Source: Dactylorhiza incarnata (lineage: Eukaryota > Streptophyta > Magnoliopsida > Asparagales > Orchidaceae). Taken from it: a DNA stretch of 64,000 bases. Below, in pieces: positions 1,047 through 57,169 of the stretch. The stretch's first letter is position 1; the number at the start of each line of letters is the position of its first letter. A program made the translations under genes and the position numbers. The stretch is from contig JAWHQI010000019.1 in NCBI GenBank assembly GCA_033032865.1, positions 14,240,001 to 14,304,000 on the forward strand. The letters run 5' to 3'. Under the pieces are notes generated by a model, which worked only from the letters and a program-made list of their open reading frames with translations, searched no databases and had not been told where the DNA came from.

Positions 1047-1377
1047 CTTCGCGATCACAAATGTCCTCGCGAAGAGCGGGGATTGTGTACAACCCCAATG
1101 TTCGCCATGCGGGGAGATTGTCTAAAGAAGGCAATGGGACGGAGCTCGCTACAGGGCGAGCGAGAAGGGTTTGGTTGCCGAGACAAGGGGTCGTTGAAGC
1201 CAAAGGGACTCACGCGAGAGGGGTCGCGAGGTCCAGGCCTCGCGAGACCGGACCTCGGCAGATACCGCTAGGAGGGGGCCTGCGAGGTCCTCGCAGGGCG
1301 ATCGCCTTGAAGAGTTACCATGAGCAGGACTCGCGAGAGGGACCGCGAGAGCACTCCATAGAATAGTTCTCGCAGTT
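1047..1377. repeat. Dispersed TCGCGA palindrome array
   Basis: About nine copies of TCGCGA or close variants (TTCGCGATC, CCTCGCGAAG, GTCGCGAGG, CCTCGCGAGACC, ACTCGCGAGAGG, ACCGCGAGAG) occur at irregular 10-80 bp spacing. The array lies between the minus-strand TATA box at 966-973 and the plus-strand LTR TATA box at 1541. Scattered GCGAG motifs continue to the left into the ORF region. Confidence 0.7.
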
Positions 1378-1411
1378 TCTGGCCCATAAGCCGATAGGGT
1401 CAAATTACTCT

Positions 1412-1848
1412 TGTTACCCTTGGTGGTCTGCCCTTAGCCTCTCCAAACAGCGGAGTTTGGCTGTTAGCAGACTCATTTGGGGTGCGGATAGTAAAACTAA
1501 AAGGCGGAATCCGGTTATTTGCAGACCACAAAACTAAGATCTATAAATAGACCTCAAAGGGCACCTTGGAAGAGGACCGGTTCAGAATCTTTGAGCCTTC
1601 TTCTCTCCTTAGGTCGCTTTGGTTTGGGCTCTCTAGCTCTCCAAGGTGCCTGAGTCTTAGCTTTGGCTTGGGAGGGGAAGCGCTCAACGATCTTCCGGGT
1701 TAGTGGAGGGACCTCCTTGCTGAGACCAGGGTCTTTGTTCTTTGTCCGAGTTATCTGCCTACCTCTTCCGAGGGACCGGTAAGGGCTAGCTGCCCCTCAA
1801 TTCGTTGAGGGCCCCGAGCTCCACAAGAGACCGAGAAATCGGTTTCAA
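1412..1848 (+). repeat. 3' LTR of element A
   Basis: It starts TGTTACC and ends TTTCAACA, so TGTT/AACA form the terminal inverted repeat. A clear TATA box (CTATAAATAG) lies at 1541-1550, with about 300 bp of R-U5 after it. Upstream is a TGCGGATAGTAAAAC motif that recurs before other TATA boxes in this window (TGCGTATAGTAAAA near 21697 and 45897; TGCGGATAGCAGA near 46035). The left boundary is the less certain one because no good polypurine tract precedes it. Confidence 0.5.
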
Positions 1849-2071
1849 CACCCTTATTATTTCAGTTAAATGATGTGAACATTTATATATATAGCATGTG
1901 ATTTGTGGACTTGAACTTCTATTGTTCGTTTATACTTTTCTTATTCTGTGATCGATATGGCCGGCAGGATCGGCGCTTTGTAGTGGCGACCTTCCCGTGT
2001 GTTGGTGTCACCGCAAAGCGGCGGTTCTGGGCATAAGACCCAATTTTGTAGCGAAAAAATGGGTTCTTACA
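1849..2071 (+). repeat. Truncated end of the 5' LTR of B
   Basis: This matches the final 220 bp of the 3' LTR, including TATATATAGCATGTGATTTG, GATCGATATGGCC and the terminal CTTACA. The rest of the LTR lies left of insertion A, outside the window. Confidence 0.8.
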
Positions 2072-2073
2072 AC

Positions 2074-3933: not shown

Positions 3934-4884
3934 TGATGCACTGTGAGGTCAGTCGACTTGTGAAGGCCAAGTGCAAGAGTCTTGGGGAACTAGCATAGTC
4001 ACTGCCCGTGTTTGAGTAGAAGCTCGAGGATATAATAATGGATTGTATTCACAGGTTACCACATCGCCACTCCATGCACAAGTTCATTTGGAACATCGAG
4101 GATAGATTGACCGAGGTAGCTAGGGTCATCCCGAGCTGGAAGGACGCTCCCATTGGTGTTTGATGGGATTTGTTGACCAGTTTGTCCATTATCGTGGTGT
4201 ATGTAGGACGATCGTGTCGGATCAGGATGGACGGGTTACGTCCAGGAAGTGAAGATCAGTCCAGGCTGATCTAGGTTCCTGGTTGACGTTCAACACAGCT
4301 TTCTACCCTCCGAGGGATGGAGGTGCAGAATTCCACCATCTGGGACCCAGGATGAGGATTTAAAGACACTTGGCTCTGAATTTGTAAAGGACACAGATGC
4401 CCAGGTGCGACTAATTCGTGTTAGGATGTTGGAAGCCCATAACAGGCAGGACAAGTATTACGATGCGCAACATCATGTAGTAGAGTTTCAGGTTGGAGAC
4501 CGGGTATCCCTGAAGTTATATCTAATGCATGGAGTCTCGCGGGTACGCAGGCAGAAGAAGCTTAGTCTAAGATAAATGGGGCTCTACAGGATCATGGAGT
4601 GGATCGGCCCGTTGGCTTATAGACTAGAGCTATCGCCGGAGGTAACGGGTTTGCATGACGTCTTCCACATCCCCTCCCTTAAGAGAGCTCTACAACAACC
4701 GAAGCAGCATATATCTATTACGGATGGGCCAGTAACTTCTGACCGATCAATTTGCGTGGAGCTGGTCAGGATAGATGGCATGAAGATGCGGGTCTTGTGG
4801 CGCAAGAAGATTCTGTGGGTAAAGGTCCTGTCGAGAAATCATGGACATGAGAAGCACACCTGGGAGCCACTAGAACCAATGTAG
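3934..4884 (+). pseudogene. Ty3/gypsy integrase remnant with C-terminal tail
   Basis: Translation with several stops and frame changes follows the integrase order of chromodomain-type gypsy elements: end of the zinc-binding part with VKAKCKSLGEL (about 3960), start of the catalytic core with LEDIIMD (first catalytic Asp, near 4030), the second-Asp block TIVSDQDGRVTS (near 4209), then a degraded FNTAFYP block. After that come VEFQVGDRV (about 4481) and an open stretch 4576-4884 containing GPLAYRLEL, GLHDVFHIPSL and a final HTWEPLEP, the tail that precedes or includes the chromodomain. Stops at about 4015, 4162 and 4573 and a lost glutamate region rule out activity. No reverse transcriptase was found upstream. 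Confidence 0.8.
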
Positions 4885-5021: not shown

Positions 5022-5231
5022 TGTAACATCCTTCAAACAACTAGACCCCTAGAGTGGTTTTGTCATGACTAGGTCATGACAAAACCCTAGGAAGCTTGAA
5101 GAGACCACTTGGCCTTTGCCAAGAAGAAGGAAACCACAGTGGTCTACAAATAGCAATTTCCAAATAATAAGCCTAAGGTTGGACTTTAGGGCCTCACCTT
5201 GACCCTTTGTCCCCACCATAACATACCTAAC
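5022..5231 (+). repeat. 3' LTR of B, segment 1 (5' terminus)
   Basis: It begins TGTAACATCC after a degenerate AATTTCGGGGACGAAATT block typical of the end of chromodomain gypsy elements. It aligns with LTR C at 36253. It contains a perfect palindrome at 5056-5086 (14-bp arms GGTTTTGTCATGAC, spacer TAG). It ends at the target site of E1; CTAAC at 5227-5231 pairs with CCAAC at 11231-11235 (4 of 5). Confidence 0.85.
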
Positions 5232-7023
5232 TGAAAGTGCATAGTGTGCCTCTGAGAATCCTCTAGAGGGGGGGGGGGGGGTGAATAGAGATTTAAATTT
5301 ATTTCTATCCTAACTGTGAAAATACAATAAACCTAAGTATTATGCTTCACAATATATTTCTAAGAATAAAGTTATTGCAATTTAATTAATAAAATAAAAA
5401 GGCAGAAAATGAAATCTAGTCTATGAGGGACAACACGAAAAATTAAAACCAAGAGGACACATATAACTTTTTATAGAGGTTCCCCAAAATGTGGGTACTC
5501 CCCTCTTCTACCACCTGGTAGGGTTGCACCACAGTGCACGAGTCTTTTGGTAAGGAGACTCTTAGAACCACTGATCTTTTGACAAAGAAATCATGAACCA
5601 CCAGATCTTTTGATAAGGAGATCTTGAACCACCAGATCTTTTGGTAAGGAGATCTTGAACCACTGAATCCTTTGAAGAGGGATTAACAAAACTCTTTTAC
5701 AGAAGAGGAGGAGAAAGAAAAAGAGGAAGGTTGTAGGAATTCTATTTTCAGAATTCTTATGATAGTTGTATGTGAAACAACTTTTGTCTTTTCACTGGAT
5801 CCGCTCTCGATAAACTTCTGCTTAAGATGGTGATGATTTGCAGAAGTTATGATTGTCAGATCCTATGTGATCCTACTGATTGAGATTTTACTGTTGTGTC
5901 GTAGTAATGAAGAACAGCTTTCAGATTCTCCTATCTTCTTTCTTATTGAACTCTGGCTGCAATATGATTGTGTTGATGAGCAGCCTTGCTATGTTCTGTT
6001 CTAGGTGAGAAGAAGAGCAGCAGTTGTTCCTTCTCTATTTTATCTGGTCTTAGGGTTCTTGAGGGAGAGAGGAAGGAGGGGTGCTCAATGGAACAATGTG
6101 GCCGATTGTAATAAGTGCCTTACTCTTCTCTTTCTTCTGTTGCCTTTTTTTGTCCCACTGTTGAATTTGAATTTTTATTCCCTTTTTGGTAAGTCCTGAA
6201 GGGTATATTTGTCTGGACAATAAATCCTTCCTTCTTTCTTTAATTCCCGACCCGTCCACCAACATTTAGGCTTGTTTCCAAGAAAGCTTTTCTCTGACCT
6301 CAGTTAATTCTTTATTCCATTTAAGGTAATTAAGGAGCCATTGGGGAATGGTCTTGAGAGAGGTGGGCCATGAGAGAGGGTCAGAAATGACAGATGAAAA
6401 GATTTCCCTTTTCAGACTGTATTCAACATAGCGTCGAGTTAACTTACTCTCTTATCGATGCAACTTCGAGTTCTTGTAGGAGCAGCTTCGATTTCATCTT
6501 TGCTCTAATTAAACTCTGCTAGTCAATGTTGTTTCGATATCTTATCGACGTAACCATCGAGTTGATATGCATGATTCTGAGCTTCATCATCTGCATCGAG
6601 ATGAGGTCGACGTTGCATCGACTTTAGTTGGCTTCGACAGATATCCCCTTCTACGTCGAGTTGAAGTAGAAGCTGCGTCGACTTCTCAAATTACTTCGAC
6701 AAGCCCATGACCTCTACGCCGACTTCTATTCGACGTGATGTCGACTTGAGTTACTTTGACAGAGGGGTTGAACCACTTAGACTTCTAGTCAGAGCAGCGT
6801 CGATATAGACTCGATGTTGCGTCGAGTTCTATTCGACGCAAATGTTAACTTAGCCAAAATTTTGCTTCCCTTGATCTAGTCTTGACACCCTAGGATGAGT
6901 GTGACATCCTAAGACATCTAATGACCAGATTACCCTTACTATACACTGGGTAATTCAATCCTAAGAAATAAAATCACTTTCAGATAATTTGTTAAGTTAA
7001 ATCAAAGGGTTTTTTTCCCAACA
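5232..7023 (-). repeat. 3' LTR of E1
   Basis: In sense it starts TGTTGGGAAAA (right edge) and ends GCACTTTCA (left edge). It contains a TCGACG/GCGTCGA array at 6425-6850, five tandem hairpins at 5540-5684 and a 14-G run (on plus) at 5269-5281 that reads CACCCCCC in sense. The tract AATAGGGGAAGA (minus, 7035-7024) before it is the polypurine tract. Confidence 0.85.
5540..5684 (-). repeat. Tandem covarying hairpins in the E1 LTR leader
   Basis: Five units of about 31 bp start at 5540, 5572, 5603, 5634 and 5665. In each, 5-6 bp arms flank a loop of about 10 bases resembling CCTTATCAAA. Arm pairs in sense are GAGTCT/AGACTC, TGATNT/AGATCA, AGATCT/AGATCT (twice) and AATCC/GGATT. The right LTR copy (9750-9894) has the same set, with the second pair fully complementary. 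Confidence 0.7.
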
Positions 7024-7255: not shown

Positions 7256-8993
7256 TCACTGCTCCTTCTCAGGAGTCTTTCTTTTTCTTGAAAATACTTT
7301 TGAGGAGGCTTTTCTTGAGGCAACCTGCAAAGGCTCATTATTTTCTTCAGCAGTGTCTTTGGTAAGCTCCCCCTGACTTTGTGCATTTGTTTCAGCTTCC
7401 TGGGCAGCTTCCTCTGCTATCTGAGCAACTTCATCTAATGGATCTTTATCTTGAATCTCATCTTGAGCTGCAGCTGTGCTTATAGCAACCATCTTTGCAT
7501 GTAGGTTCCTCTGGACATCTGGGTTAGGCTCCCCCTATTTTGATGGCTTTCCTTGGACATCATCATCCAACCTTTCTGAATGCCCCCCTGAGCCCCCTGA
7601 AACTGTGCAACCTGAAAGGTAGTCACTTTGTCAGGAGCAGGCTCATTATCTTGGTCTTGTCCACTCAAAACTGGAGGAGGTATTTCTTCCTCTAATATGT
7701 TCTCCCCCTTCGTGACCTTGCTGGCCATAGAGGTTAAGAACTATTTTGTTACCATGGAGGAAGACACGAATTCTTTTATTCCCTGGAGGAATCTCTTTGA
7801 GTCTAGTAATTCAGCCTCCACCTGGGATTATTTTCTATCAAGCTTTCTTGCCTGGGTGGCCACCAGGTCTGCAAAGGTGGAGGATGCAATGGCCACAGCT
7901 TTTGAAATGACCTGCTCAAGGTCAATTGGATGGGTATGAGATGTAGATGGAGGAGGTGATGGAGGAAGCTCTTCTTGGATAGGGGTGAAAGGATGGTAAA
8001 CATTAGGAGAGTAATGAACTGATGGAGGTGGTGCAGGAGCAGGTTGATACCCTGGAATGGCAGTTGATGATAGTTGATGGGATGATTGAGGAGGTGGCTC
8101 AGGGGCTGAGGAGGATTGGTGCTATTATTGTTGTTGTTGGGGTGAATGTGGGGCTATAATATCATCCTGATGAGTATCTGGAACATTGTCCAGTGGAGGT
8201 GGAGAGTGAGCAGGAGGGATAGCATCCCTTGGAGGGTCTGGAGTGTGCCTTTCTGGCTCTTGATGAGGAGGAGATGGAGGAGGAGAGAATGGAGCTTGAC
8301 CAGGCTTCACTATTTGCCTGGTCCACTTGGAAAAGATCCCTATGCTAATCCTCTTCCAAGGAGGAATAGGCACTCCATTTGACTTACACACACTGAGATA
8401 GTGATGAAGCAGTACCTGAATCATGATCCTCGTGAAAGAATTTTCCTTATGGGCATACTTATGCCCAATCATCCTTAGGAGGCATTTCCCCAAACTGATC
8501 CTATTCTTCTGAACTAGATCTCCCATTATCTGAAGCTGTTGCTTTGGAACAGCATCATGTGCTGATATCTTACAGAGCAGCACTTTCCCTACAATATCTG
8601 CAAGAAATCTGTATTCTTCCCCAAGGTCAATCTTCTTCAGATTCATGGGATTGTCCTTCTTGAACTGCATAATCTCCAGGACCCTCTTGGTCCATCCCCT
8701 GATAATTCTTCTAATTCATTTCCAGGAAGAAAGTCATATGTTTGATTTAATATGCCCTCTGTTATCAGGACTTCTGTATCAGATATTTTTCCTTTAAGAG
8801 ATCCATCCTCTCCTATCTGAACATTATCTATGAACTCTGTTAGCTCCAAATCCAAGATCTTGCATCTTGTTGAAATGAGCTTGGTTAGGCCTGCATCCTG
8901 GAACAAGCCAAGAATATCTTTGAAGCTTTCTGCCGCTGCAATGAATGACTCAACATCCACGTCGAACCCGGAGTTAATCATGGGTGGAGCCAT
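7256..8993 (-). pseudogene. Env-like / putative plant transposon protein of E1, frameshifted
   Basis: ATG at 8993-8991 starts MAPPMINSGFDVDVESF, the same opening as the E2 ORF at 15824. The first frame runs to 8643, then a frameshift leads into a frame open to 8125 with IVGKVLLCKISAHDAVPK and KWTRQI, followed by a proline-rich segment. After a stop near 8128 the homology continues to about 7256 (conserved block FLTSMASKVTKGENILEEE near 7735-7690). The central block resembles the domain found in plant retrotransposon env-like or 'putative plant transposon' proteins. SIRE-type copia elements carry such an ORF after pol. No signal peptide or membrane segment is evident, so an envelope function is not supported by the sequence. 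Pol is absent upstream; a TCGACG array takes its place. Confidence 0.6.
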
Positions 8994-9099
8994 TTGAATT
9001 TGGTTGTACCTGCAAACACAAAGAAAAATGAGAGAGAAAGAGGCACGGGAGAGCTGGAGAGCAAGAGAGCAGGAGAAAGAGAATTCGAAAGCATAAATG

Positions 9100-9390
9100 T
9101 TTCGACGCAGTAATTGCTTAAAAGCAGATGAATCGCCGCTACTTAGGGTTTAGGTCGACGCTTTGTCGATATTACATATTATTTGGCGCGCAAGGCTGTG
9201 TCGAGATTTCTTCTAGAAGCAATTCTGCGCGCGCTGATATATCGACGTTGCATTGACTCATACTCGACGTAGCTTCGAGACTATTCAGAGACCTTAAGTC
9301 GACGTAGTCCTGCCGACGTTACGTCGATTTCCAATCGACGTGACTTCAAATTTAATCAGCAATTATTAAGTCGACGTATACCAATTAACA
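9100..9390 (-). repeat. TCGACG array upstream of the E1 env-like ORF
   Basis: At least eight TCGACG, GCGTCGA or one-base variants (for example near 9152, 9237, 9299, 9322, 9370) occur between the PBS and the ORF start, at 15-45 bp spacing. Between this array and the ATG the minus strand has a pyrimidine tract ending TTTGCAG at 9010, a possible 3' splice site 17 bases before the ATG. Confidence 0.65.
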
Positions 9391-9441: not shown

Positions 9442-9443
9442 AT

Positions 9444-11230
9444 TTAATGTGCACAGTGTGCTTCTGAGAATCCTCTAAGGGGGGGGGGGGGTGAATAGAG
9501 TTTTAAATTTATTTCTATCCTAACTGTGAAAATACAATAAACCTAAGTATTATGCTTCACAAGATATTTCTCAGAATAAAGTTATTGCAGTTTAAGTAAT
9601 AAAATAAAAAGACAGAAACTGAAATCTAGTCTATGAGGGACAACACAGAAAATTAACACCCAGAGGACACACAGAATTTTTTATAGAGGATCCCCAAAAT
9701 GTGGGTACTCCCCTCTTCCACCACTTGGTAGGGATGCACCACAGTGCCTGAGTCTTTTGGTAAGGAGACTCTTAGAACCACTGATCTTTTGACAAAGAGA
9801 TCATGAAACACCAGATCTTTTGATAAGGAGATCTTGAACCACCAGATCTTTTGGTAAGGAGATCTTGAACCACTGAATCCTTTGAAGTGGGATTAACAAA
9901 ACTCTTTTACAAAAGGCGAGGAGAAAGAAAAAGAGGAAGGTTGTAGGAATTCTGTTTTAAGAATTCTTATGATAGCTGTATGTGAAACAAGTTCTGTCTT
10001 TTCACTGGATCTACTCTTGATAAACTTCTCCTTAAGATGGTGATGATTTAAAGAAGTTATGATTGTGAGATCCTTTGTGATCCTGCTGATTGAGATCTGG
10101 CTATTGTGTAGTAGTGATGAAGAACAACTTTCAGATTCTCCTATCTTCTTTCTGATTGAACTCTGGTTGCTATATGATTGTGTTGATAATCAGCCTTGTT
10201 CTGTTCTGTTCTAGGTGAGAAGAAGACCAGCATTTGTTCCTTCTCTGTATTATCTTGTCTTAGTGTTCCTGAGGGAGAGAGGAAGGAGGGGTGCTCAATG
10301 GAAAGTGTGACCGATTGTAATAAGTGTCTTACTCTTCTCTTTCTTTTGTTGCCTTTTTTTGTCCCACTGTTGAATTTGAATTTTTATTCCCTTTTTGGTA
10401 AGTCCTGAAGGGTATATTTGTCTTGACAATAAATCCTTCCTTCTTTCTTTAATTCCCGACCCGTCCACCAACATTTAGGCTTATTTCTAAGAAAGCTTTT
10501 CTCTGACCTCAGTTAATTCTTTATTCCATTTAAGGTAATTAAGGAGTCGTTGGGGAACGGTCTTGAGAGAGGTGGGCCATGAGAGAGGGCCAAAAATGTC
10601 AGCTGAAAAGGTTTCCCTTTTCAGACTGTATTCGACGTAGCGTCGAGTTAACTTCCTCTCTTATCGACGCAACTTTGAGTTCTTGTAGGAGCAACTTCAA
10701 TTTCATCTTTGCTCTGATTGAACTCTGCTAGTCGACGTTGCATCGATATCTTATTGATGTAACCGTCGAGTTAATCTGCATGGTTCTGAGCTTCATCCTC
10801 TGCATCGAGATGAAGTCGACGTTGCATCGACTTTAGTTGGCTTCGACAGATATCCCCTTCTACGTCGAGTTGAAGTAGAAGCTGCGTCGACTTCTCAAAT
10901 TACTTCGACAAGCCCATGACCTCTACCTCGACTTCTATTCGACGTGACATCGACTTGAGTTACTTCGACAGAGGGGTTGAACCACTTAGACTTCTAGTAA
11001 GAGCAGCGTCGATATGGACTCGATGTTGCGTCGAGTTCTATTCGCCGAAAATGTTAACTTAGCCCAAATTTTGCTTCCCTTGATCTGGTCTTGACACCCT
11101 AGGTTGAGTCTGACATCCTAAGACATCTAATGACCAGATTACCCTTACTATACACTGGGTAATTCAATCCTAAGAAAAAAAATCACTTTTAGATAATTTG
11201 TTATGTTAAATAAAAGGGGTTTTCCCAACA
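9444..11230 (-). repeat. 5' LTR of E1
   Basis: This is a near-identical copy of 5232-7023, starting (plus) TTAATGTGCAC, a mutated form of TGAAAGTGCA, and ending TTTCCCAACA. The TCGACG array is at 10628-11050 and the hairpins at 9750-9894. Confidence 0.85.
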
Positions 11231-12479
11231 CCAACCTTTTAAGGGTTCCCTTAGAGCACTAAGGACCCATTGGGGTCAACCAAAGAGGCCAAGTTGACCA
11301 AAGTCAACTCTAACCTTAAATTGGCAAAGTAGCACAATAGGGTCAATTGGCCTCCACCATGCAAAATTGAGCTTCCCCCTACCCTTATAAGAATATCAGG
11401 AACCCAATGGACCAAAAAGCCCCATCATAGGGCCAACAATTTGGCCAATTTGACCTAAGTCAACTCTAGCCTTGTTTTGGTCAAATTGCCCTATTGTGGG
11501 TCAATTGGCCTCCACCTTGCCAAATTGACCCTACATAGACCTTCCTAACCCTTAGGTGAGGCGAATGTGTCACTAGCCGCCCATTGAGATCAACCCAAAT
11601 GGTCAAATTGACCAAAGTCAACTCCACCCTAAATTTAGGTCAAAATGACCTATTTTGACCTAATCAAGCCCAATCCACTTGGGCTAGACCTAATTGAGGT
11701 GATCCACTAGCTAATGGGCTTTGGAATTACTGAATTGACCATTCAATTTCAAAGAATTCGACTAGGAGAGAGAAAACACCATTTTCCCCAAAAATGTTGG
11801 AGAGAGAAAGAGAGGAGTAATGACATTTATGGCCAAGGGAGGCCAATTGATCTCCCAATTGATGGGGATTCATCTCCTCTTGCTGTTACAAGAATTTTAG
11901 GAGTTTTTCCTGCCCACATGGGGGCTGAAATGGGGAGTTTTCACCATGGCCAAAATTAGGCTTAATGGCCATTAATGGCGGAATCAAGGTGGTGGCTCCT
12001 CCTCTCCCCAAATTGATCCTTTTAAGAGCTTCAGAGGACTGAGAGGAGTGTTTTCCACCATTTACTTGGAGAAATCGGGCAACTTGGTGTAGAAGTACCA
12101 TGGCACATAAAGCTTTGGATCGGCCATGGAGGACCACCCAATCAGCAAGGAATCAACCCTCCACACAGGCCTGGTTCTTCTCCTCTTCTCCTATGGATAG
12201 ATCTACATCTAAATTCGACAAGGATTGGGGCCAATTGGTCCCCAATACAAATGGCCAAAATCTCCATTTTTGGAGATTTTCTTCTTGCCTAAACCATCGG
12301 TTCCGGCCACCACCAGCCTGCCAAGACCTCCCATCGTCGGCCACCACCTCAAGGAACGTGGTGGTGGAATTGGCCGGTCGGGGAGGGGCATGGGTGGCTG
12401 GGAAAACCAAGGTACAGAGGCTACAGGTCAGGGAAATCTCCACCCTTGGTTGGAGGAGGACGATGAAGGGATGCCTTTA
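11231..12479 (+). repeat. 3' LTR of B, segment 2
   Basis: It continues segment 1 and aligns with C (36455-36800 and 43395-44285). At 11270-11670 it has repeated GGTCAA and TTGACC motifs, including the palindrome TGGTCAAATTGACCA near 11610. No coding capacity is credible: short ORFs near 12100-12530 lie in LTR sequence shared with C. It ends at the E2 target site CTTTA (12475-12479). Confidence 0.8.
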
Positions 12480-12744
12480 TGAAAGTGCACAGTTTACCTC
12501 ACTAGAATTCTCTAGAGGGGGGGGGGGGGGGTGAATAGAGAATAAAAATTATTTTGTGCAAAGTTAATATATATATGTGTATGATCACAGATTAGAGCTT
12601 CCACACACCAACAAGAATTAAACAAGTAAAGAAAGTAAATGCAAGAAAAGAAATCACAGCACAACACAAGAAAATATAGTGGTTCCCCAAACTTTGGGTA
12701 GTCCACTCTTCTACCCCCTTGGTAGGAATTCACTATCTTGCACT

Positions 12745-12873
12745 GAGTCTTTTGATAAGGAGACTCTTAGAACCACCTTGAGTCTTTTGACAAGGAGACT
12801 CTTAGAACCACCCTGAGTCTTTTGACAAGGAGACTCTTAGAACCAGTACACTGAATTTTTTGAAGAGAGATTC
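12745..12873 (-). repeat. Tandem 35-bp hairpin units in the E2 leader
   Basis: Three exact-period units start at 12745, 12780 and 12815, each with GAGTCT/AGACTC arms around a 10-base loop CCTT(A/G)TCAAA in sense. A fourth, diverged unit (12853-12873) has GAAT/ATTC arms. The copy in the right LTR is at 18988-19115. The units lie downstream of the TATA box, so they should be in the transcript leader. Confidence 0.75.
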
Positions 12874-13200
12874 TAAAAACTCTTTTACAATATCTAAGTA
12901 AGAATAAGAAATAAGAAAGAAATAAGAACAAGAATGAATCTTCTTCCTAGCAAGAAGATTGGAAGCACAAGAAGTGAATTAAATCTTTCTTTTATAGAGA
13001 GAAGAAGATTTGTAGCTTTTCTCTCTTTGTGAGAGCTATCAGAACTTGCAGCAGAATGACTTCAGAAGCAGGAGAAGAAGATGTGCTTGAATATTGCTGC
13101 AGAACAATTTCTCAATTTTCTCTCTATACTTGGGAGCTCTTCCTCTTTTTCAAATTTAAAATGGTGAATCCCTTGTTCTCTTTTTCTGCCGACCTCCTCT

Positions 13201-13209
13201 TTATTTATA
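13201..13209 (-). promoter_or_regulatory. LTR TATA box of E2
   Basis: Minus strand TATAAATAA within GAGCTATAAATAAAGAGG. The TCGACG array begins about 270 bp upstream. The second copy is at 19438-19446. Confidence 0.7.
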
Positions 13210-13479
13210 GCTCTGTTAATTCAAAATAATACAGGAGGATAATCAATTATCAGTCAGAGAAATAGAAAGATGAAAATGTTTCCATAATATTTATTTCTGT
13301 AGAAGGAAAGAACTAATTCTGATTTCAAATAATGTCCAAATAAGTTTATTCAATTTAGCCAAGAATCAGATATAAGGAAAGAATGATTCAGAACGGCTAT
13401 AAAATATTGATATTTATTCCATACAAATCAGATCTACTGAAAGAAGGAAAGAGATCTGGCGCATATTTAAATCTGTCAT

Positions 13480-27776: not shown

Positions 27777-27784
27777 GCCTTAGA

Positions 27785-37532: not shown

Positions 37533-37541
37533 CTATTTATA
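37533..37541 (-). promoter_or_regulatory. LTR TATA box of E4
   Basis: Minus strand GCCTATAAATAGGGG. The second copy is at 42917-42925. Confidence 0.75.
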
Positions 37542-37559
37542 GGCGAGAAGACGGATGTC

Positions 37560-37990: not shown

Positions 37991-37996
37991 TCCACT

Positions 37997-43394: not shown

Positions 43395-45985
43395 AGCCAC
43401 CCATTGGGGTCAACCCAAATGGTCAAATTGACCAAAGTCCACTCCACCCTAAATTTAGGCCAAAATGACCTATTTTGACCTAATCATGCCCAATCCATTT
43501 GGGCTAGAACCAATTGAGGTGGTCCACTAGCTAATGGGGTTGGGAGTTACTGAAATTGCCATTCAATTTCAAGAAATTTAGCAAGGAGAGAGAAACCCCC
43601 ATTTTCCCCAAAAATGGTGGAGAGAGAAATAGAGGATTAATGACATTCATGGCCAAGGGAGGCCAATTGATCTCCCAATTGATGGGGATTCATCTCCTCT
43701 GGCTGTTACAAGAAGTTTAGGGGGTTTTCCAGCCCTCAAGGGGGCTGAATTCTGTGGGTTTCACCATGGATGAAATTGGTCTTAAAGGCCAGTAATGGTG
43801 GAATCAAGGAGAGACCCTCCCTCTCCTCAAATTGTGTCTTTTAAAAGCTTCAGAGGACTGAGAGGATCATTCCCCCTCTTACCTAAAGAAATCGAGACAC
43901 TTGGTGTAGGAGTTCATATGGCATTAAGAGGCAAGGGATCGGTCATGGCCAATCGGAAAATGACAAGGGTTTCTCTCAATAGGTCCTCCCCACCTCCTCT
44001 CTCTCTTTGGATAGATCTACCCTCATTGGTGGCTCAATTTGGGGACAATTGGTCATGGATCGGGCTAACCGAAAGCTTTAGAAATGGAGCTTTTAATCCT
44101 GATCAAAAAGCCCTATTCCGGCCACCTTCGGCCAGCCAACCACCTCTAATCGCCGACCACCACCTCAACGGAGGTGGTGGCATTGGCCGTCCTGGGCGGT
44201 GTTCAGGTGGCTGGGAAAGTGGGGTTGAAGGTGGCCCAGGTGCGGGCAATCTTGGCCGTTGGCCAGAGGAAGAAGATGGATGAATTCTGTCCATTCTGCG
44301 CCAAGATTCGTGCGGGCTGATTATATTAATGTAATTAATAATAGTGCATTTTGTCACAGTTTATTGTAGTAGATAGAAATATTAACTAAAACTACTTAGG
44401 GACCTCTGATGGAAAAATGTTTAACATCAAATTTGTAGCCCCTGCAGCCTACTTTAATTCAAAATTAATTTCATGCAATTTGGTTTAGTGGTCTGACCAC
44501 AGCACTCAAAATGGTGCAACCTATACAAGGGGTTGACCAGAGCTTGATTTGTGTGCCCCCACTAAACCAGCCATCCAAATGTTCTGAAATTTGGAACTTA
44601 GCCTACATATACCCCACCCTTAACATATCCAAAAATGAGATGTTTTGGAGGACCTTTTTCTAAAGTTTTTGCAAACATTTAATAATTCATGTATGAATTA
44701 ATTTTAGGGGCTAGTGACATCCAAGCCCTACCAAATTTTGGTGGGAGGTCCTTAGGGTCATGATATGACTCTGGTAAAAATTTCATCCCAGTTGAGATTG
44801 ATTGGTTGGGTAATTAGTTAGCCCAAGATTGGTCAAACTATGGGTTAATAGGTCAAAAATGCACATGTTGGGTTTGAATGGTCAATCCGCATCCAAAGGT
44901 GATGAAATCTTGGCCACTTATTTAATGTCACATATAACACCCCTACAAAGGATTTTGGGTAATTTGGGGTGGATGTGTCCTAGGACCCTAGTTCAAACCT
45001 TAGGGTTGTACATTGAACCTATTGAAGGATATAAGGTGGTATCAAACTCTAGGTAATTTATCTAGAAATTTTAGAGACATTTATTCTCTCTGAATTAATT
45101 AAGGTTTATTTAGGGTACTTTCACAAGAAGGAACTACATGCTCATATAACCTAGGATGATTATGAAATTTTGTCAGTGAATTTTTATTGATGATATAAAC
45201 CTCTGATAATTTTTCTAAGAATTTTGAAGTATTATATATTGTACTTCATTCACAACCCCAATATTTGCCCTTGATGTATAAAAATTAATTATGGGTTTAA
45301 CACTCACTAGAAATTCATGAAACTTGGTCAGAGGACTTTTCAGGGCAAGTAAATTATATGTTAATTTTGGCATGATGTTTGGAAAAATTTATATGTGGTT
45401 CCCTTCACAAGATACCCTTGGACTTGTTTATTTAAAAACAAAATTATATGGTCAAATGAATTTAGAAAATTATGGAACTCCAGCAGTGAACTTTTCTAAC
45501 CATCTTGGACACCAGCTAATTTTCTTGTAATTTTTGAATAAGAGTTTCTAGTACTTCCCTTGTTAATCCTTTATTTTGATTAATTAGTTAATATTTTAAT
45601 TGAGGTCAAAATCTTTCTGGAAACTTGTGAAATTTATATATGGCTGTTATTTTACTGTTATATAGCTTTACAAATTTTAGTAAGGTCATATCTTATCAGA
45701 AAACCATACATGATGTTCAAGTCATAGGTTCTCTGATTTTGGAGAAATTATAATAATTACCAAATATAGTAGGAAAATTATGAATTTTTGGAGTTGGTCA
45801 TATAATGTCATAACACACCCCCAATAATAATCTTTAGTCATTTGGATGATTATTTGGAGTAGCTCCTCTCATGCACCTCATATAGCTCACTTGGTCTGCG
45901 TATAGTAAAATTGTAAAACTTGGGAAAGTTGTAGACCACTAGGTGGGAATGGGAGCTAGATGGTTTACCTAGTCTGGTTGAGGAA

Positions 45986-47986: not shown

Positions 47987-48794
47987 TGATGCGCAAAACT
48001 ATATCCGCAAACGACAATGGCAAGTGTACCGTATCGAAAGTAGTATAGGTTTATAAAACCAAAGTCGTATTAGACTCGGGGCGGTTGAGAACTCTTACTT
48101 TAAGAAAGTCTCTATTATTTTATCAATAAATCTTTGAGTTGGATTTTGCACTAAAGAGGATTTAAAATAATGATTAACGCAATAACAAGAGCGATTAGCA
48201 CTTGATCATTGAATCACCTCGGAGATAAAAATAAGAAGAAAGAACAAAATCGCATTCTCTTAATAAAATAGCTTTGACCGTGGAGATTCCCGAATTATGA
48301 ACGCACCTTAGGTCGAGGATACGCCCAACTAAGATTAGGAATTTTATCCTCTTATTCCCATGACATATGATCTTTTTTTCTACATTTTTTTTATTTGCCA
48401 ACAAAGGGTAAGGGTAAAGAAATACTTCTAGTTTATAAATTAAACTATTTTGAGAGCAACTTTTTTAGTGGAATGAAATTTCCTAAGATCTTAAAGTTAA
48501 TAGAGAATATAATCAAAATCTAGAAATGTTTAGCCAATTTACCACAAAGTGAAGTTATTTAAAATTAAAATGAGAAGTGGTGCTAAATAGATTCTCTAAT
48601 CGAATTTAAAACATAAAATGTTTCTTAAAAACAAAATTACTTCAAATTTAAATTTAACAAATTATGATAAAACAAAATATTAGTCAAATCAAAAATGTAG
48701 GAATACTTATAATCAGACCTCAAACTAGATTTCTAGAAAAATAAAAACAACAAGTAAAAGGGAGATATATCTATAAATATATATATATATTATT

Positions 48795-48876
48795 CTTGGA
48801 CTTCCCAAGGTCTACCCGGTGAAGGGTTCGCAATGTACTAGGAGGTGCGATGGGAGTTCAAGCCCAAACCCCCCTT
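48795..48876 (-). repeat. 85-bp internal repeat of E7, copy 1
   Basis: CTTGGACTTCCCAAG, GTGAAGGGTTCGCAA, GTACTAGGAG and GGAGTTCAAGCC occur in the same order at 50424-50508. The two copies sit at the two ends of the interior, outside the ORF. Confidence 0.75.
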
Positions 48877-49201
48877 TCCAAGATATTAGATTTTTTATGA
48901 TTTTTATAAATATTTTTTTTCTCTTATAGATTGAAAAGAAAGCCTAGAAAGCTATTGTACACCCCTTACTTAAAATTAAACATTGTCCCCAATGTTTAAA
49001 ACTATGGATGAAGAATACGTGAAAGGGAAATGCATAAAAATGCATGAACATTTAAAGATAAGCAAGGGGTGCCTAGCTCCCAAGAGCGCTTTCTTTTTCC
49101 CGTCTTTAAGCTAGACGGTTATTGTTAGCTAAACGGAAATTGAAAAGAGAAGTGCACAGGAACTCCCTTAATTCACATTTAGGTGAATGTGTCGTCATCG
49201 G

Positions 49202-49808
49202 TCATCCGTCTACTCCTCCATTTATCATGTGATTCTCCTTTTGTCCTTGAATTTGAATATGTAAATCCAAATCACCTATACATACTTGAGGTGATTTGGA
49301 TATATAAAGATGAGTGGCATATGGATCATTGATTATTTGGGGTGGCAACGGCTCATCTTCAACCTGAAAATTATTAGTATAAAGAGAATCACAAATAAAC
49401 GAGTCAGAAAATTTTTCGCAAGGAGGAGGTGCTTGCAAAAATATATGATCAAGCTCCTGTTATTTATTTTCTAAAATAAAATTTTCTTTAGAAGAATCTA
49501 GTGCATTACCAAGGGAAATAAAATTTTCGGGCACAAGATTTACATGAATTTTCGGTTGAACTAAGATGGAAGAAATTTGCGTAAATTCATGACAAAGAAC
49601 AGAAGATCCGGGTGAAGTAAGAGAAGAAACTTGTTCTTCTTCTATTTCATCCTAGGTGCCCATGACATTAAGAAAATCTTGGTAAGAAAATTTTTCTTCA
49701 TCTTTGTAAATGAAGTTATGGGATTACATGAAAACACATGTTCCTCCATAACTAAATTATCAAAAGATGGAGAAAAAGTACTAGATGAAAAAATATGTTC
49801 CTCTAAAT

Positions 49809-49846
<38 letters not shown>

Positions 49847-50311
49847 AAATTGAACTGGTGGAAATTCCCCAAAATTAGAGCACGAAAATTGCGTCGCATA
49901 AGTGGAAAAATAAAAATTCGGATCTAAAGATTTATCTTCATCGCTCTGAGAACTATCCAGGTGAGCTTGCCACCAAGAATAATCTACTTCGGGGCTAGAG
50001 GAAAAATTATTAAAAACCGAAAAATTATTCTCGTGAAAATTGGAAAAAAGATTTTCATCAAAGTTTGAAAAATTATTTTCATGAAAAGAGGAAAAATTAT
50101 GATCGTAATTATTATCAAAATTATTTGCATAATATTGAGAAAAATTATTTTCATAATAATTATTATGAGAATATGAATGTAAATAACATTCCTCACTTTG
50201 ATGAGGCGCACCACAATAATAACAACTATTTTGGCGGTTTCGTGCGGCTTCCAAAAGATTGACTTTGTTTTGAAGCTCAGCAACTTTTACGGCCAATTCA
50301 GATAACTTCAT
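49202..50311 (-). pseudogene. Gag-like Asn-rich zinc-knuckle protein of E7
   Basis: ATG 50311 starts MKLSELAVKVAELQNKVN (short coiled coil), then a CX2CX3HX4C zinc knuckle, CYYCGAPHQSEEC (residues about 30-42), a form seen in gag of Tat/Athila-type gypsy elements. Residues about 47-105 are an Asn/Phe/Tyr-rich repeat of the type HENNFSNFDEN. A poly-proline run is encoded by 30 consecutive C in sense (49840-49811). Past the run the frame depends on its length; homologous-looking acidic sequence continues (EEHVFSCNP) in shifted frames down to about 49202. No capsid domain is seen. The role is probably nucleic acid binding; the product could assist packaging, but this is inference. Confidence 0.6.
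49811..49840 (-). repeat. 30-bp G homopolymer (poly-Pro codons in sense)
   Basis: An uninterrupted G run on the plus strand inside the gag-like ORF. Its exact length may be a sequencing artefact and it decides the reading frame downstream. Confidence 0.85.
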
Positions 50312-50423
50312 TTAATAAAATAAAAAAAAAACAACCTTCACTTAAATGAATGGAATTTTAGAAAATTATTATAATATAAATAAAATATTTATATTTTTTT
50401 TTTCAAAAAGCGGGTTAAGTTAG

Positions 50424-50508
50424 TCCCGGACTTCCCGAGGTCTACCTTGTGAAGGGTTCGCAAGGTACTAGGAGATGCGAATGGAGTTCAAGCCAAAATC
50501 TCCCTTTT
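50424..50508 (-). repeat. 85-bp internal repeat of E7, copy 2
   Basis: Partner of 48795-48876, lying just downstream of the PBS in sense, i.e. in the 5' leader. The small hairpin at its start keeps pairing potential in minus-strand RNA (CTCGG/CCGGG with one G-U pair; copy 1 CTTGG/CCAAG). Confidence 0.7.
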
Positions 50509-50626
50509 TGAGAATTAAAATTACGCCTTTTAAGATTTTTTTTTTAAAATTTTAAGAGAAAGGGGTGAGAAGAAAGAGAACGATAAAATTAATAGATATT
50601 TTTTTTCGAAATATCAACCGTGTTCC

Positions 50627-50643
50627 CCGGCAACGGCGCCAAA
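50627..50643 (-). other. Primer binding site of E7 (Asp tRNA type)
   Basis: Minus strand TGGCGCCGTTGCCGGGG, four bases from the LTR end; complement of the 3' end of plant Asp tRNA. Confidence 0.85.
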
Positions 50644-50647
50644 AACT

Positions 50648-52251
50648 TGATGCGCAAAACTATATCCGCAAACGACAATGACAAGTGTACCGTATCGAAA
50701 GTAGTATAGGTTTATAAAACCAAGGTCATATTAGACTCGGGGCGGTTGAGTACTCTTACTTTAAGAAAGTCTCTATTATTTTATCAATAAATCTTTGAGT
50801 TGGATTTTGCACTAAAGAGGATTTAAAATAATGATTAACACAATAACACGAGCGATTAGCACTTGATCTTTGAATCACCTCGGAGATAAAAATAAGAAGA
50901 ATGAACAAAATCACATTCACTTAATAAAATAGCTTTGACCGTGGAGATTCTCGAATTATGAACGCACCTTAGGTCGAGGATACACCCAACTAAAATTAGG
51001 AAATATCAACCGAATTCTCATTCTATAATCGATAACCTAATACTTGCTTTACGGGGTGAATCCCGTTAATGGCTTTTACTCCAATTCGGAAGGGTAACGT
51101 CATCCTCTCGCGAGGATTGCATTCTACTCTTTTTATCCTTGAGTGATCGATTTGTCTTACGAGCCTCTCGGCTAGCTAAAGAACGAAAACATGATCAAGA
51201 ATTATATATCAAAAATATAATCTCGTTATCTTAAAATCAAGGATAGATCTTAAGCTTTTTAGAAAAGAGAAAGAGCAATTCTAAATTACTTCAAAACTTT
51301 TATTATTTCTTGGATCATCTCGATCAAGTACTACTAATATTTTAGTTACTCATGGAGATTGAGGAATCAAAATACATAAAAGAGTACATAATAAAATAAG
51401 AGGAGAATAAGAAGTTAAGAGAACTAATTTTATTGATTTGCAAATGAAAATTACAAACTAAGGAATTGAGATTACGAACTATTTAATTGAAATTACAATT
51501 GCAAGAATAAAAAGAAGTACAAGAACTACTAAAACATGAAAATAAAACATGAAAAGAAGAGTCTAAGTCCTAAAAATTCGCCCCTGATCAGCTGGAGAGC
51601 TCTCTTTAAATAACTGAAAATTTGGTGTTACACGCCCTTGGTCACGCCCGTGACCAAGGGCGTGTAAGGGGCGTGATCAAAGCAGCAGCGGAGAGGGCTC
51701 CTTCTGGAGTAATTGTGGGCGTTACATGCGTGTCACGCCCCTGGGTCATGCTCGTGACCCTGGGGCATATAATCTTTAAAATAGGCTGATGGCGGGAGGC
51801 TTCGACGGTAAGTTGCGCGGGATGAGTCATGCACGTGTACTGGATGACACGCCCCCTGGTCACACCCATGACCTGGGGCGTGTAATTTTAATTGACGTAG
51901 CAGGCTTGTTCTGACCGAAGGAGGCGGGTCATGGCCGTGACCATTGGTCACGCCCCTAGGTCACGCCCGTGACCTGGGGCGTGGACTTGGCAAATTGCGC
52001 CCGGGGTGGTAGAATCGGGTCTGGAACACATCTATGCTGTCACGTCCCTTGGTCACGCCCGTGACCTTGGGCATGTACTTGACAATCTTGCTCAGAGTGC
52101 CTAGAAAACCTGAAAAACACAGAAACGCTTAAGTTAGTTTATGAAATAAAAAGGGAATGATTTATATGATATAATTCATATAATTTATATCATTTCAAAT
52201 TAAAAATATATTAAAACTATACTAAAAGATGAGTATATAAACTACTCATCA
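50648..52251 (-). repeat. 5' LTR of E7
   Basis: In sense: TGATGAGTAGTTTATATAC start, five long palindromes (52080-51628), a TATA-like TTATTTAAAG at 51613-51604, R-U5, and GCGCATCA end. Confidence 0.85.
51628..52080 (-). repeat. Five long palindromes centred on GTCACGCCCGTGAC in the E7 U3
   Basis: The first (51628-51667) has perfect 19-bp arms TTACACGCCCTTGGTCACG with a 2-bp spacer. Imperfect relatives start near 51729, 51846, 51945 and 52041, roughly every 100 bp. All carry ACGCCC(C)(T)TGGTCACG-like arms. The perfect one lies closest to the TATA box. Confidence 0.85.
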
Positions 52252-52256
52252 TAGGG

Positions 52257-53038: not shown

Positions 53039-53885
53039 GCCATCTTGTATTAGATTTTATGATTAAATGATAAGAAAAAAACCTAAACCCTAAATTTCCC
53101 TCTTGAGTTTCTCCCTCTCCTAGCCGCCCCTTCTCTCTTTCTTCCTTCATTGGATTTCGGCTCCTTCTTGGCCGCCCATCTCTCTTCCTCCCTCCTCTTG
53201 GCCACTGGCCACCACTTCTCCTTCCCCCTATTTCTTTTCTCCCTCAACTTCAGCCCCCTCTCATAGCCGCCCATCATACTCCCTCTTCTTGAGAAGTTTT
53301 GGCCAAGGTGAAGAAGGAAAAAGAATGGGTCGTGGCCCTGGGAAATCAAGATCCGGCGTGAAGCAATCAAGGCGAACAAGTTTCTCTCCATTCGACGCGA
53401 TTCAAGTGGATCCGTAGAAGAACGATTCAGGCGAGTGCATGCTTGAGGATAATCCCATCTCAAGCGGGGTAATGAAATTTCTACTCGTGAGAATTTTCGC
53501 TCTTGTTAATTTCTAGTCGTGGTTTTCTTCGATCAATTTGTGCGCTATTCTTATTTCTTTTAATTTTCGAAGAGGATTGGCGAACCTTGACTTTTTGTTG
53601 GGAGAAATCTACCCTTTTGAAATTGTAATTTTTGGTAGATCTCTTTTGGTACAACTCAAGCTCGTTCGGACCGGGTGGGTCCTTTTAGTCGGGAAGAATA
53701 TTGGCCTATAACCATCTATTCAACCTCTAGCGGCGTGACTACCCATACGTTAGCATCTAATTGATAAATATTGCGTTGCGTGTATGTTGCGAGTAATTTT
53801 ATGCGAGTGTAAAATTTGGGAGCGTTGAGGGAGAACGCGTGCGTATTCGTAGCGATCGTGTCGGAGAGCATAACCTGCATCAATT

Positions 53886-53901
53886 TGGTATTAGAGATAG
53901 G
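53886..53901 (+). other. PBS-like site of E8 (drifted)
   Basis: TGGTATTAGAGATAGG differs by two bases from the TGGTATCAGAGCTAGG form seen elsewhere in the window and follows a plausible LTR end. Confidence 0.5.
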
Positions 53902-55744
53902 TTCATGTCAATTTCTTAATTGAAGCATTCCTAAAGTTTTCTTATATCTCCAGTGTAACGCCCCGGGTTTTTTTTCCTTACAATTATTTTATTTAAGGCA
54001 TATAGGATTAATAATAATTTATCTAACGCGAAATATTAATTCAAGGCGTGGAGGCGAAATGGCGTTACCGTTTCGGGATCGTCGTCGTCGTCCGGCGAGT
54101 TATTTCTAGTTGGGGGCGTCAATGTGGTATTATGTATGTAATTGTGTATATATATACGCATATATGCATACATATAGAATTATAGGCATGCATGAGTATT
54201 TACTTATTAGCGTGCTACTAAATGTATTCGAATACAAATGTTCATGTGTTTGCGTGCTTGGAGTTTTATAGGGTGGTTGTTTAAAAGTATATGTATATAT
54301 ACGCATACATTAAGCGTTAAGGTGTAAAGATTATATTTAACGATTTATACAACTTAAATACATCATATATACATATGTATATGTATAAAATCAGGGATTC
54401 ATTAGGCTTTATGGGTGTATGCGGGTGGATATATTTATGCAAACGTATAATATACATATAAAAGTTATTTATAAATATAAAAGTTATTTATAAATATTAA
54501 AGTTATATATAGAATATATATATATAAGTTTTTATTTTATTTAATTATACATATAATAGTTAAACGCCCTCCCCCCTTCCCCAAGCTAATTCATTTTTCC
54601 TTCTCCCCCTCCCCGATGTTCCTGCAGTTGCCGAAGTGGAGTTGGCGGGGGTTAGGGTTTTGTCGGGAGTAGGCCGTCGGGAAAGGATTAGGGGCTGCCG
54701 GAGCTCGTTTTTCGTCGTCGGAGTGGGGGTGGTGGTGTGTTCTCTTCGGAGGCGGCGGCGGTGGTTAGGTCGTTCCGTCGTGGTATCGTTTCGCCGTGCG
54801 GAGTCGTTCCCGATCCAGGCAAGAAAACCATTTCCCCTTTCGATTCATTTCCTTCCTCTTCTTTTTTTGATCTTTGCTGAAATCGATTCATGAGTATGGA
54901 AGTTTTTTTTTTAAAGGAACCGTGACTCATGCTTCCAGTTATTTGTTAATGGGGGGTTGTATACATATAAAAATGGGGCTATATGCTTATAAACAAAACT
55001 ATCAAGAATAAGGATAAGATTTTGTTGGCTATATGCTCCTCATGATGCCTCAGTCAAAAGTTTGTACCTTTAGGACATCTTTGTCATGTTTGTTATGTCT
55101 TCCCCCATTAACTTTGTTTCTCAAGTGTCTTGCTCAGCGCCAAACCCAAATTGCTTCACTTAGTGATTTTTATGCTTGTCCTAAGATCTGGCAAACTGGG
55201 ACATTGCCTTCATTTTGTGATCAGAATCAAAATTTCATGAGACACTTCAGATGTTTGATCAACTGTCTGCTAACTCTGTGAGCTCAATCTTTACTTCCTT
55301 TGCATGTATATCTTCCTCCTTGATTGTTTGCATTTGGGGCTGATTCTTATGTGTGGGGGCTGCCTCATCCTTGTTGATTTAGGGGCTGCTGTCTTTAAAT
55401 TGGTGGCTGATGCTGTTTTTAAATGGGGGCTGCCTTGTTTCCTTTTTTTTTGTTAAAGGGGAGGGCTGCTGCTGTCTTTAAAGTGGGGGCTGCCTTATAT
55501 ACTTGTGCCTATTCTCTAATTGGGGCTGCTGTGTGCAAACCAGTTGGGATTCTTTTTAGAGGGCTGCATCTATTTCTGTTTTTCTTTCTTGTCTAACTAA
55601 GGGCTGCTGTTATTGTCATGTTGGGGGGCTGCTCTTATAATACCTATTATCTGGGGGCTGTTTTCATACTATCATGTTGGGGGGCTACTCTTATAATACC
55701 TATTAATTGGGGCTGTTTTCATGCTATCATGTTGGGGGGCTGCT

Positions 55745-57169
55745 TGATGCGATATTTCGGCAAGTGCACCGTTCGCGCAAGTAATAAAGTTTGGGAATAG
55801 GATCCCCGAGTGTCGGTCTCTTGAGGAATGCAGGTTGGGTAAACGAATCGTGTTGTGTGACTATTGTTACACAAGCGTAAACAAACACACAAAAAGGGGG
55901 GTTTTGGTTGGGTTTTCCCACTCTTAACAACAATGAAGGAAATGCGGGTCGAAAGCACCGCTTCGCAAGGCGAGATGGATGCAACGGCCGCGATGCCGTG
56001 CTTCGTGAGGCGGATGGAGCGTGCTCTAGTGCGGGAAGGTGAGGGTCGCAAACACCTCTTCACAAACGCCGTTAGCTCTTGCGAACGCGTATCGAACACC
56101 TTGAGTGCGTGAGTGAGTGAGTGGATGAGTGGAGGCGAAGCGATTCACAAGAAAGTAATGATGAGAAGAGGAGAAACATTCATTTCATTTAAACCAAATA
56201 TCATGAGATTCAAGTTTAAGAGATTCAAAGCTTACAACGAAGGAGAAAGGAAAGAGATAACCAATGGATGAAGACTAGCGGCCGTTCACGTCCGGAATGG
56301 TAGTTTGTCAAGCTACCTCCGCACTCGGGCGGACTGTGCTTCCGGTGTAGAGAAACTGTCACGATCTCTCTACGTGGTTCCGTCGTCTTCTACCTCAGGA
56401 TTCCTCTTCTTGTCACCGGACTGGAGTGGAGAACAGCTGCTTGAGGGCTTGCGGATGGTGGAGAATGCTCCCGGACAATGGAGAAATGCTTGGAATGGTT
56501 GGAGAGGACTTCCCCTTGCGTAGGAGATGAAGTGGAGGTGTCCAGGGATGGAAATCGCCCGCGTACGGACTGCCAATCGCGCTCCCGGCGGCTCGATCCC
56601 GCCCTAAAATCGGAACAGACAATATATAGGCGCTGGACTGAATACTGCGCACGGTCATTGGCACACGACCAGTGGTCGTGCGCACTGGAATTCTGCGATC
56701 GTGCGCGCTGCCTGGAGGGAGCCTGAAATGAAAGAAATTCATAAAATACATGTTCGCACGACCAATGATGCACGACCAGTGGTCGTGCGCACTATCGTAA
56801 ATGGTCGTGCGATAAGCCAGACAGAACTCATAAAATGGGCGTTAAGTGCGCACGATCAGTGGCGCACGACCAGTGGTCGTGCGCTATAGAGCCAGTGATC
56901 GTGCGCAGTGTTCCTGTACAGAATTGTACCGGGAACACCTGCACGACTCCTGTTCCAGCGTACAACACCAGTTTAGCCACTGAAGGTGGCACTTAACACT
57001 GCATGAAAACTAGTAACGAGAATGAACAAGAAATAACACCAAAACGGGCCTAGAAGTGCACTTAGCATGGAGTATTAAATAGGAATGAAAACATGTCTAA
57101 AGTGAAGTGCAAAGACTAGAAAATCGGCCCAGATGAGTCCAAAAATGTGTATATAATTGGGACTCATCA
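55745..57169 (-). mobile_element. E10: solo LTR inside the E9 5' LTR
   Basis: 1425 bp, plus TGATGCG...GACTCATCA, with perfect CTGCT duplication (55740-55744, 57170-57174). The 3' LTR of E9 has the empty site at about 63319-63325. The ends resemble those of the E7 LTR (TGATGCG...ACTCATCA), so a related Tat/Athila-type family is likely. In minus orientation a TATA-like TATATATT lies at 56628-56621, with the CACGACCA palindromes upstream. ORFs inside are not credible as genes. Confidence 0.88.
56640..56900 (-). repeat. CACGACCAGTGGTCGTG palindromes in the E10 U3
   Basis: Three exact 17-bp palindromes (56664-56680, 56771-56787, 56865-56881), about 100 bp apart, with further GTGCGCAC and GATCGTGCGC motifs between them. 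They lie immediately upstream of the TATA-like box. Confidence 0.85.

Follow-up and report, generated by a model that had tools for sequence, protein, structure and literature searches.

Why should different retrotransposon families, nested in one another, each carry clusters of its own short word, in both orientations, at the same part of the long terminal repeat (LTR)? The question is raised by a 64-kb stretch of DNA (contig JAWHQI010000019.1, positions 14,240,001 to 14,304,000; hereafter the window), which appears to be plant DNA, judged from its element types. Self-comparison combined with boundary reading revealed that the window consists of nested LTR elements, many of them on the minus strand. 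The initial annotation had described six palindromic arrays, in the elements E2, E3, E4, E7 and E10 and in an insertion termed A, as private motifs of unrelated families, and had offered as explanations binding sites for family-specific factors, recruiters of silencing, or rapidly diverging hairpin-forming regulators. That list was incomplete, for it missed a gypsy family, X, which carries GGTCAA arrays in two copies. We propose that the arrays are probably clusters of binding half-sites in U3 for a family-specific, likely dimeric regulator, the hairpins being a consequence. All copy-level evidence comes from this window: two LTRs each of E2, E3, E4 and a further element, L5, two copies of X, and one copy each of E7, E10 and A.

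Half-site arrays against shuffled controls

All six annotated clusters were located where they had been placed. Seventeen regions were compared with 1,000 dinucleotide shuffles on three scores. The top hexamer count lay above every shuffle in 16 of the 17, the remaining one being an array within the gag of the element E24 (p=0.002); in each of the six annotated arrays one hexamer exceeded all 1,000 shuffles. The second score, inverted hexamer pairs with a gap of up to 8, reached p<=0.006 in ten regions (A, both U3s of E2, E3 and E4, E7, E10 and one internal array of E2) and p=0.025 in the gag array of E2. It missed 0.05 in six, namely the two L5 U3s (0.09 and 0.18), the internal L5 array (0.06), the E24 gag (0.44) and the R-U5 half-sites of E4 (1.0 and 0.30). 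Long palindromes with perfect arms, the third score, were not significant in A (0.08), both L5 U3s, the gag arrays of E2 and E24 and the R-U5 of E4. The half-sites stand in both orientations, irregularly spaced, and are not tandem units: TRF reported partial units of 2–3.4 copies in the arrays of A, E2, E3 and E10 and none in those of L5, E4, E7 and X. The arrays are real.

In a blind scan, 425 windows, each 300 bp long, were tested against 300 shuffles, a pass requiring both hexamer count and inverted pairs; 23 windows passed. Sorted by overlap, 21 of 50 array windows passed against 2 of 350 non-array windows (25 windows with small array overlap excluded), and none of the 141 non-array windows with a GC content of at least 0.42 did so. 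The array list used here draws its internal arrays from the motif map and includes the X arrays, which the same scan revealed; 20 passing windows are left once the three X windows are removed. Taken alone, inverted pairs reached p<=0.01 in 52 of the 425 windows, where about 4 are expected, and were judged too general because they are above expectation outside the arrays too (21 of the 350 non-array windows). The density of perfect palindromes, a poor statistic because AT-rich windows top its ranking, gave way to hexamer counts and inverted hexamer pairs judged against shuffles. A Tekay-like LTR at 53954 passed the scan with ATACAT (two windows); it is AT-rich and microsatellite-like and was not counted as a motif array. 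An array-free control was sought in a copia element whose primer site lies at 46752, but the LTR start of that element was not found.

RNA folding of 13 LTR arrays, with 150 shuffles each, yielded z values of -1.8 to -6.8, against -0.84 to +0.67 in eight chosen control stretches. A rough fold scan covered 256 windows, each 250 bp long and compared with 30 shuffles; with 16 slightly overlapping windows excluded, the median z was -3.40 in 25 array windows versus -0.64 in 215 non-array windows, and z<=-3.35 was reached by 14 and 8 of them, respectively. Moreover, the E7 array contains a perfect hairpin with 19-bp arms. The excess fold stability is real. Such values would also be expected if the hairpin structure itself were selected, acting either as DNA cruciforms or at the 3′ end of the RNA, where U3 lies, the word being irrelevant. 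We consider this unlikely, given that the structure of one E3 U3 is weak (equalled in stability by 8 of 150 shuffles), that a single word per family exceeds what structure requires, and that the L5 U3s, the E24 gag and the E4 R-U5 still carry the word with close inverted pairing no higher than chance. Because the word persists in these places, binding sites appear, on sequence grounds, to fit best among the mechanisms first offered.

Starting from features observed directly (clustering, both orientations, privacy of the words, recurrence in the two LTRs of E2, E3, E4 and L5 and in the two copies of X, and fold stability), we propose a putative model for the action of binding half-sites. Half-sites in both orientations would cluster in the upstream, promoter part of U3. 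Each family would have its own sequence-specific factor, probably a dimer, that recognises the half-site and may drive or tune transcription. In the lineage of E2 and L5, the same boxes recur before a third open reading frame (ORF), as if they served as an internal promoter. Finally, transcripts through U3 would be hairpin-prone, because inverted half-sites lie close together, and might become small-RNA hotspots.

Words, elements and position within the LTR

Counted on both strands, the words are CGCGAG in A, CGTCGA in L5 and E2, GGTCAA in X, GCGCTA in E3, AGACCG in E4, GGTCAC in E7 and CACGAC in E10. They reach 16–49 per kb in their own arrays, compared with 0–4 per kb in other arrays and 0.12–0.48 per kb elsewhere in the window. 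The claim that motifs differ between families therefore stands for distant families. It fails for TCGACG, which is not private to E2 and is common to L5, E2 and E24; these three are akin in gag or R-U5, so the families are not all unrelated, either.

The TCGACG arrays of E2 lie on the minus strand at 13480–13725 in the U3 of the 3′ LTR (12480–13799) and at 19715–19962 in the 5′ LTR (18719–20036), the LTR pair being 98% identical. The clusters of L5 (minus strand, LTR pair about 93% identical) are found at 6425–6840 in the 3′ LTR (5231–7023) and at 10625–11036 in the 5′ LTR (9442–11230). The location in U3 described at the outset is supported, with further arrays inside the elements. These are an L5 array at 8955–9380 (minus strand; 8960–9371 on the motif map), an E2 array upstream of the third ORF at 15925–16175 (minus strand; 15934–16162), two gag arrays and, from the motif map, a small one in E3 at 30704–30722. 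The E2 gag ORF holds the word 11 times as an 11-residue repeat (16580–16810, minus strand; 16589–16800 on the motif map), and the E24 gag, interrupted by E3, holds 6 copies (26740–26970, plus strand; 26748–26959). Here a motif array of noncoding type sits within a coding region.

E3, on the minus strand with an LTR pair 94% identical, carries GCTAGCGC at 27785–28030 in its 3′ LTR (26999–28198), immediately upstream of TATAAAAAGG, and at 34155–34400 in its 5′ LTR (33369–34574). In E4 (minus strand, 92% identical), GACCGC/GCGGTC arrays occupy 37560–37990 in the U3 of the 3′ LTR (about 36809–38010) and 42935–43370 in the 5′ LTR (about 42193–43394), and more half-sites lie in R-U5 at 37030–37300 and 42410–42685. 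E7 is an insertion at 47987–52251 with the target duplication TAGGG; it retains one long LTR, the 5′ LTR (50648–52251, minus strand) with a GGTCACG-CGTGACC array at 51628–52080, and a 355-bp remnant of the second. E10 is a solo LTR without an internal region (55745–57169, minus strand; target site duplication CTGCT), and its CACGACCA-TGGTCGTG array lies at 56640–56900. It is nested in one LTR of the Tekay-like element, whose other LTR holds the empty site.

The plus-strand GGTCAA/TTGACC arrays of X lie at 11260–11740, in the 3′ LTR beginning at 5022 and interrupted by L5 and E2, and at 36420–36760, in an LTR that starts near 36257, is interrupted by E4 and resumes its array past E4 at 43395–43520. 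The two copies are 78–83% identical over matching pieces. Near the LTR start (5022–5100 and 36257–36330) both contain the same perfect inverted repeat, GGTTTTGTCATGAC-TAG-GTCATGACAAAACC, despite an identity of only about 80% between the copies in this part.

The CGCGAG/CTCGCG cluster of A (1047–1377, no strand assigned) belongs to an unclassified insertion, and its reading as a retrotransposon LTR was set aside. The insertion ends near 1849 inside the LTR of another element, and TATA-like sites occur on both strands: on the plus strand TATAAATAG lies 164 bp beyond the array, and on the minus strand TTATAAATA stands at a distance of about 70 bp. No Pfam match was obtained for a short minus-strand ATG frame at about 890, and neither a primer binding site nor a second LTR was found.

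E2, L5 and E3 show sequence signals typical of Sireviruses. The Sirevirus polypurine tract (PPT) AGGGGGAG, 10 bp before the 3′ LTR, and the AT/TG attachment site are exact in E2; L5 has AT/TG and a PPT with one base changed, and E3 has the exact PPT at -10 but TT/TG. Additional copies of AGGGGGAG occur within 708 bp (three in E2, three in L5, two in E3). All three elements have a polyC signal, with runs of 13–15 C beginning 39–52 bases from the LTR 3′ end, and an inverted repeat across the PPT/3′ LTR junction with arms of 14–17 bp and 1–2 mismatches, a feature that is not Sirevirus-specific according to PMC2829016. Reverse transcriptase was not found in their scanned ORFs.

E4 is copia-type by its domains (RVT_2, 4.8e-66; Retrotran_gag_2, 1e-12). 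It has a short 11-bp inverted repeat and lacks the Sirevirus signals, as GGGGGGAG abuts TG, no second AGGGGGAG occurs within 1.7 kb and no run of at least 8 C is present; by these features it is classed as a copia element outside the Sireviruses. X is assigned to Ty3/gypsy from a gypsy-type integrase C-terminus (SH3_Tf2-1, 4.1e-9) at 4576–4881, just before the LTR start, and we take it to be a chromovirus or Tekay-like. For E7, no gypsy domain was found, and a homologue search with its gag-like ORF among 32 candidates gave nothing at E<=0.001; its gypsy label, which we hold probable, is drawn solely from the primer site TGGCGCCGTTGCCGGGGA, presumably that of Athila-like elements. The earlier statement that both copia and gypsy elements carry arrays accordingly holds through E4 and X, with E7 a probable further gypsy case.

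The arrays had been described as lying directly upstream of a TATA box, which applies to part of them. A canonical TATAWAWR follows the last hexamer within 100 bp in E3 (about 10 bp) and E4 (64 bp). E7 and E10 have no consensus TATAWAWR; TATTTAAAG and TATATAT are nearby, and adjacency is probable. E2 is ambiguous, with a weak TTTAAATA 13 bp past the last hexamer and TATAWAWR at 275 bp. The nearest downstream TATAWAWR of L5 is about 950 bp off, and X has no TATA near its array. The first half of the LTR holds all or nearly all inverted pairs of E2 (14/14 and 16/16), E3 (11/11 and 7/7), E7 (18/19) and E10 (12/12) and most of those of E4 (5/7 and 5/6); L5 shows no such preference (5/9 and 3/6). 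As for the reported absence or rarity of the motif in R-U5, E4 half-sites are present there, though less densely: its two LTRs hold 7 and 8 copies of AGACCG/CGGTCT in U3 (470 bp) versus 9 and 6 in R-U5 (732 bp). The inverted pairs of E4 keep largely to U3. When GCGGTC is counted, the R-U5 copies, 12 over the two LTRs, all point the same way, whereas U3 has both orientations.

Several of these observations weigh against binding half-sites in U3: copies were sampled in this one window, TATA adjacency is canonical in E3 and E4 only, E4 half-sites extend into R-U5, and the words of E2 and E24 occur in coding sequence. The LTR pairs count on the same side. Between the two LTRs of E3, 26 of 251 array sites differ versus 43 of 948 elsewhere (p=0.001), and between those of E2, 7 of 241 versus 10 of 1,073 (p=0.02); in L5 and E4, array and rest show no difference in divergence. 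There is no sign that the arrays were protected after insertion, which is expected of dead copies, yet gives no support. This faster change in E3 and E2, together with the partial tandem units of some arrays and the excess of inverted pairs outside arrays, would suit a neutral by-product of short duplications and inversions, or of hairpin-templated copying in reverse transcription, merely tolerated in U3. We judge such an origin quite unlikely, as L5, E2 and E24 keep the same word, in U3 and internally, past the point where U3 can be aligned, a persistence that neutral origin does not predict.

The TCGACG lineage and its third ORF

Comparison of E2 with L5 showed 81% identity over 171 bp of R-U5, whereas their U3s align only as short scattered pieces. 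In 120 codons of the third ORF, 58 of about 79 synonymous sites differ, compared with 61 of about 281 nonsynonymous sites; the resulting synonymous divergence (dS) of 3 is saturated and indicative only. Because the same word is found in both elements despite unalignable U3s and this synonymous divergence, the TCGACG word outlasts the surrounding sequence. The supposed rapid divergence of the motifs hence describes distant families and does not describe E2, L5 and E24. The three elements also have in common a 31–37-bp tandem repeat of the GAGTCTCCTTATCAAAAGACTC type in R-U5, with varying copy number (L5, 5472–5663; E2, 12675–12845; E24, 24440–24683).

The third ORF of E2 (14552–15508, minus strand) encodes 318 residues at the ENV position and is of unknown function; its L5 counterpart lies at 8125–8715. 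Few nonsynonymous changes against saturated synonymous ones indicate, at the sequence level, that it is under constraint, and in E2 the TCGACG word precedes it. A protein of the family itself, in E2 and L5 that of the third ORF, might read the word, perhaps against silencing, as VANC does for VANDAL transposons. This constraint with arrays in front, the reduced state of the elements (the L5 internal region spans just 2.4 kb, and the two long E2 ORFs that were scanned showed no pol domain) and the binding of family-specific short words by VANC proteins (PMC5735166, PMC10398659) speak for an element-encoded reader. We nonetheless find it decidedly unlikely. For the E2 ORF, Pfam gave no match up to E=10, a homologue search among 3,045 candidates gave nothing at E<=0.001, its structure model (pLDDT 49) is too poor to use, and the L5 ORF stops short of the C-terminal helix of E2. 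Moreover, VANC targets tandem repeats, which the arrays here mostly are not, and an ORF of this kind is known here from E2 and L5 and not demonstrated for E4, X and E7.

A broader form of this idea, that several lineages (Sirevirus, other copia, chromovirus and Athila-like gypsy) have each evolved a private palindromic U3 address read by a lineage-encoded factor, the third ORF in the Sirevirus-like lineage, seems to us highly improbable. If true, it would account for the retention, in the reduced elements L5 and E2, of the third ORF together with the boxes before it, and would mean that retrotransposons have an activation or anti-silencing code specific to each family, similar to that of VANC.

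Relation to known systems

Binding half-sites have a possible precedent in the Sireviruses, which by analogy favours this reading (PMC2829016). In that source, 13 of 21 Sireviruses are described as carrying palindromic RM boxes, which lie upstream of both TATA and ENV; their words mostly differ between elements, and 12 of the 13 share a CGG-CCG core (Bousios et al. 2010, PMC2829016). The boxes are reported to be absent from the classic copia elements compared, and gypsy is not treated in that paper. The present arrays resemble RM boxes as multi-copy, CpG-rich palindromic words in the upper LTR half, upstream of TATA and ENV, and E2, L5 and E3 share the Sirevirus PPT, extra PPTs, inverted repeat and polyC signal. 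Measured against the published words, they differ in that TCGACG of E2 and L5 lacks the CGG-CCG core, as does GCTAGCGC of E3, though GCGGTAGC also occurs in the E3 array; E4, X and E7 stand outside the Sireviruses, and E2 and E24 carry the word also in gag. Since RM boxes are already published, E2, L5 and E3 add new examples to a known class. E4 and X, and probably E7 and E10, extend the palindromic-array pattern beyond the published Sireviruses. A limited literature search, seen in part, turned up no report of palindromic arrays in gypsy U3s, which is no proof of absence.

Boxes once held to be Sirevirus-specific among the copia elements compared are thus matched, in one 64-kb stretch, by the same architecture in a non-Sirevirus copia, in gypsy X and in the probable gypsy E7. 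If this is general, the word of each family would offer a ready probe for its controlling factor, and the arrays would tie regulation and hairpin-driven silencing to one place. The set of L5, E2 and E24 opens a first way to gauge the lifetime of such a word. Repeated activator boxes in U3 are also a feature of Tnt1 subfamilies. The Tnt1 U3 varies between subfamilies (PMC10794571), and the likeness is that of family- or subfamily-specific repeated U3 motifs.

In maize Sireviruses, small-RNA hotspots were reported for hairpin-prone LTR regions (2016 work, via PMC5311732 and PMC10760457); the strong structure predicted for the U3 arrays is a parallel. VANDAL words, like those found here, are short, clustered in noncoding regions and different between related families. 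VANDALs are, however, DNA transposons with their words in tandem repeats (PMC5735166, PMC10398659), whereas TRF found partial units or none in the present arrays and hence no head-to-tail tandem order of the VANC type. By analogy, VANC/VANDAL is a functional parallel, not a family match.

Three further repeats were recorded. In the internal region of E7, 30 G stand in a row on the plus strand (49811–49840), and the minus-strand frame reads polyproline. At 23461–23711, at the end of the first X copy, a 56-bp inverted repeat (87.5%) across about 250 bp is perhaps a small inverted-repeat transposon. The Tekay-like LTR contains a 55-bp tandem repeat of GGGGGCTG units (55616–55744 and 63197–63411), the copy number of which is unequal between its two LTRs.

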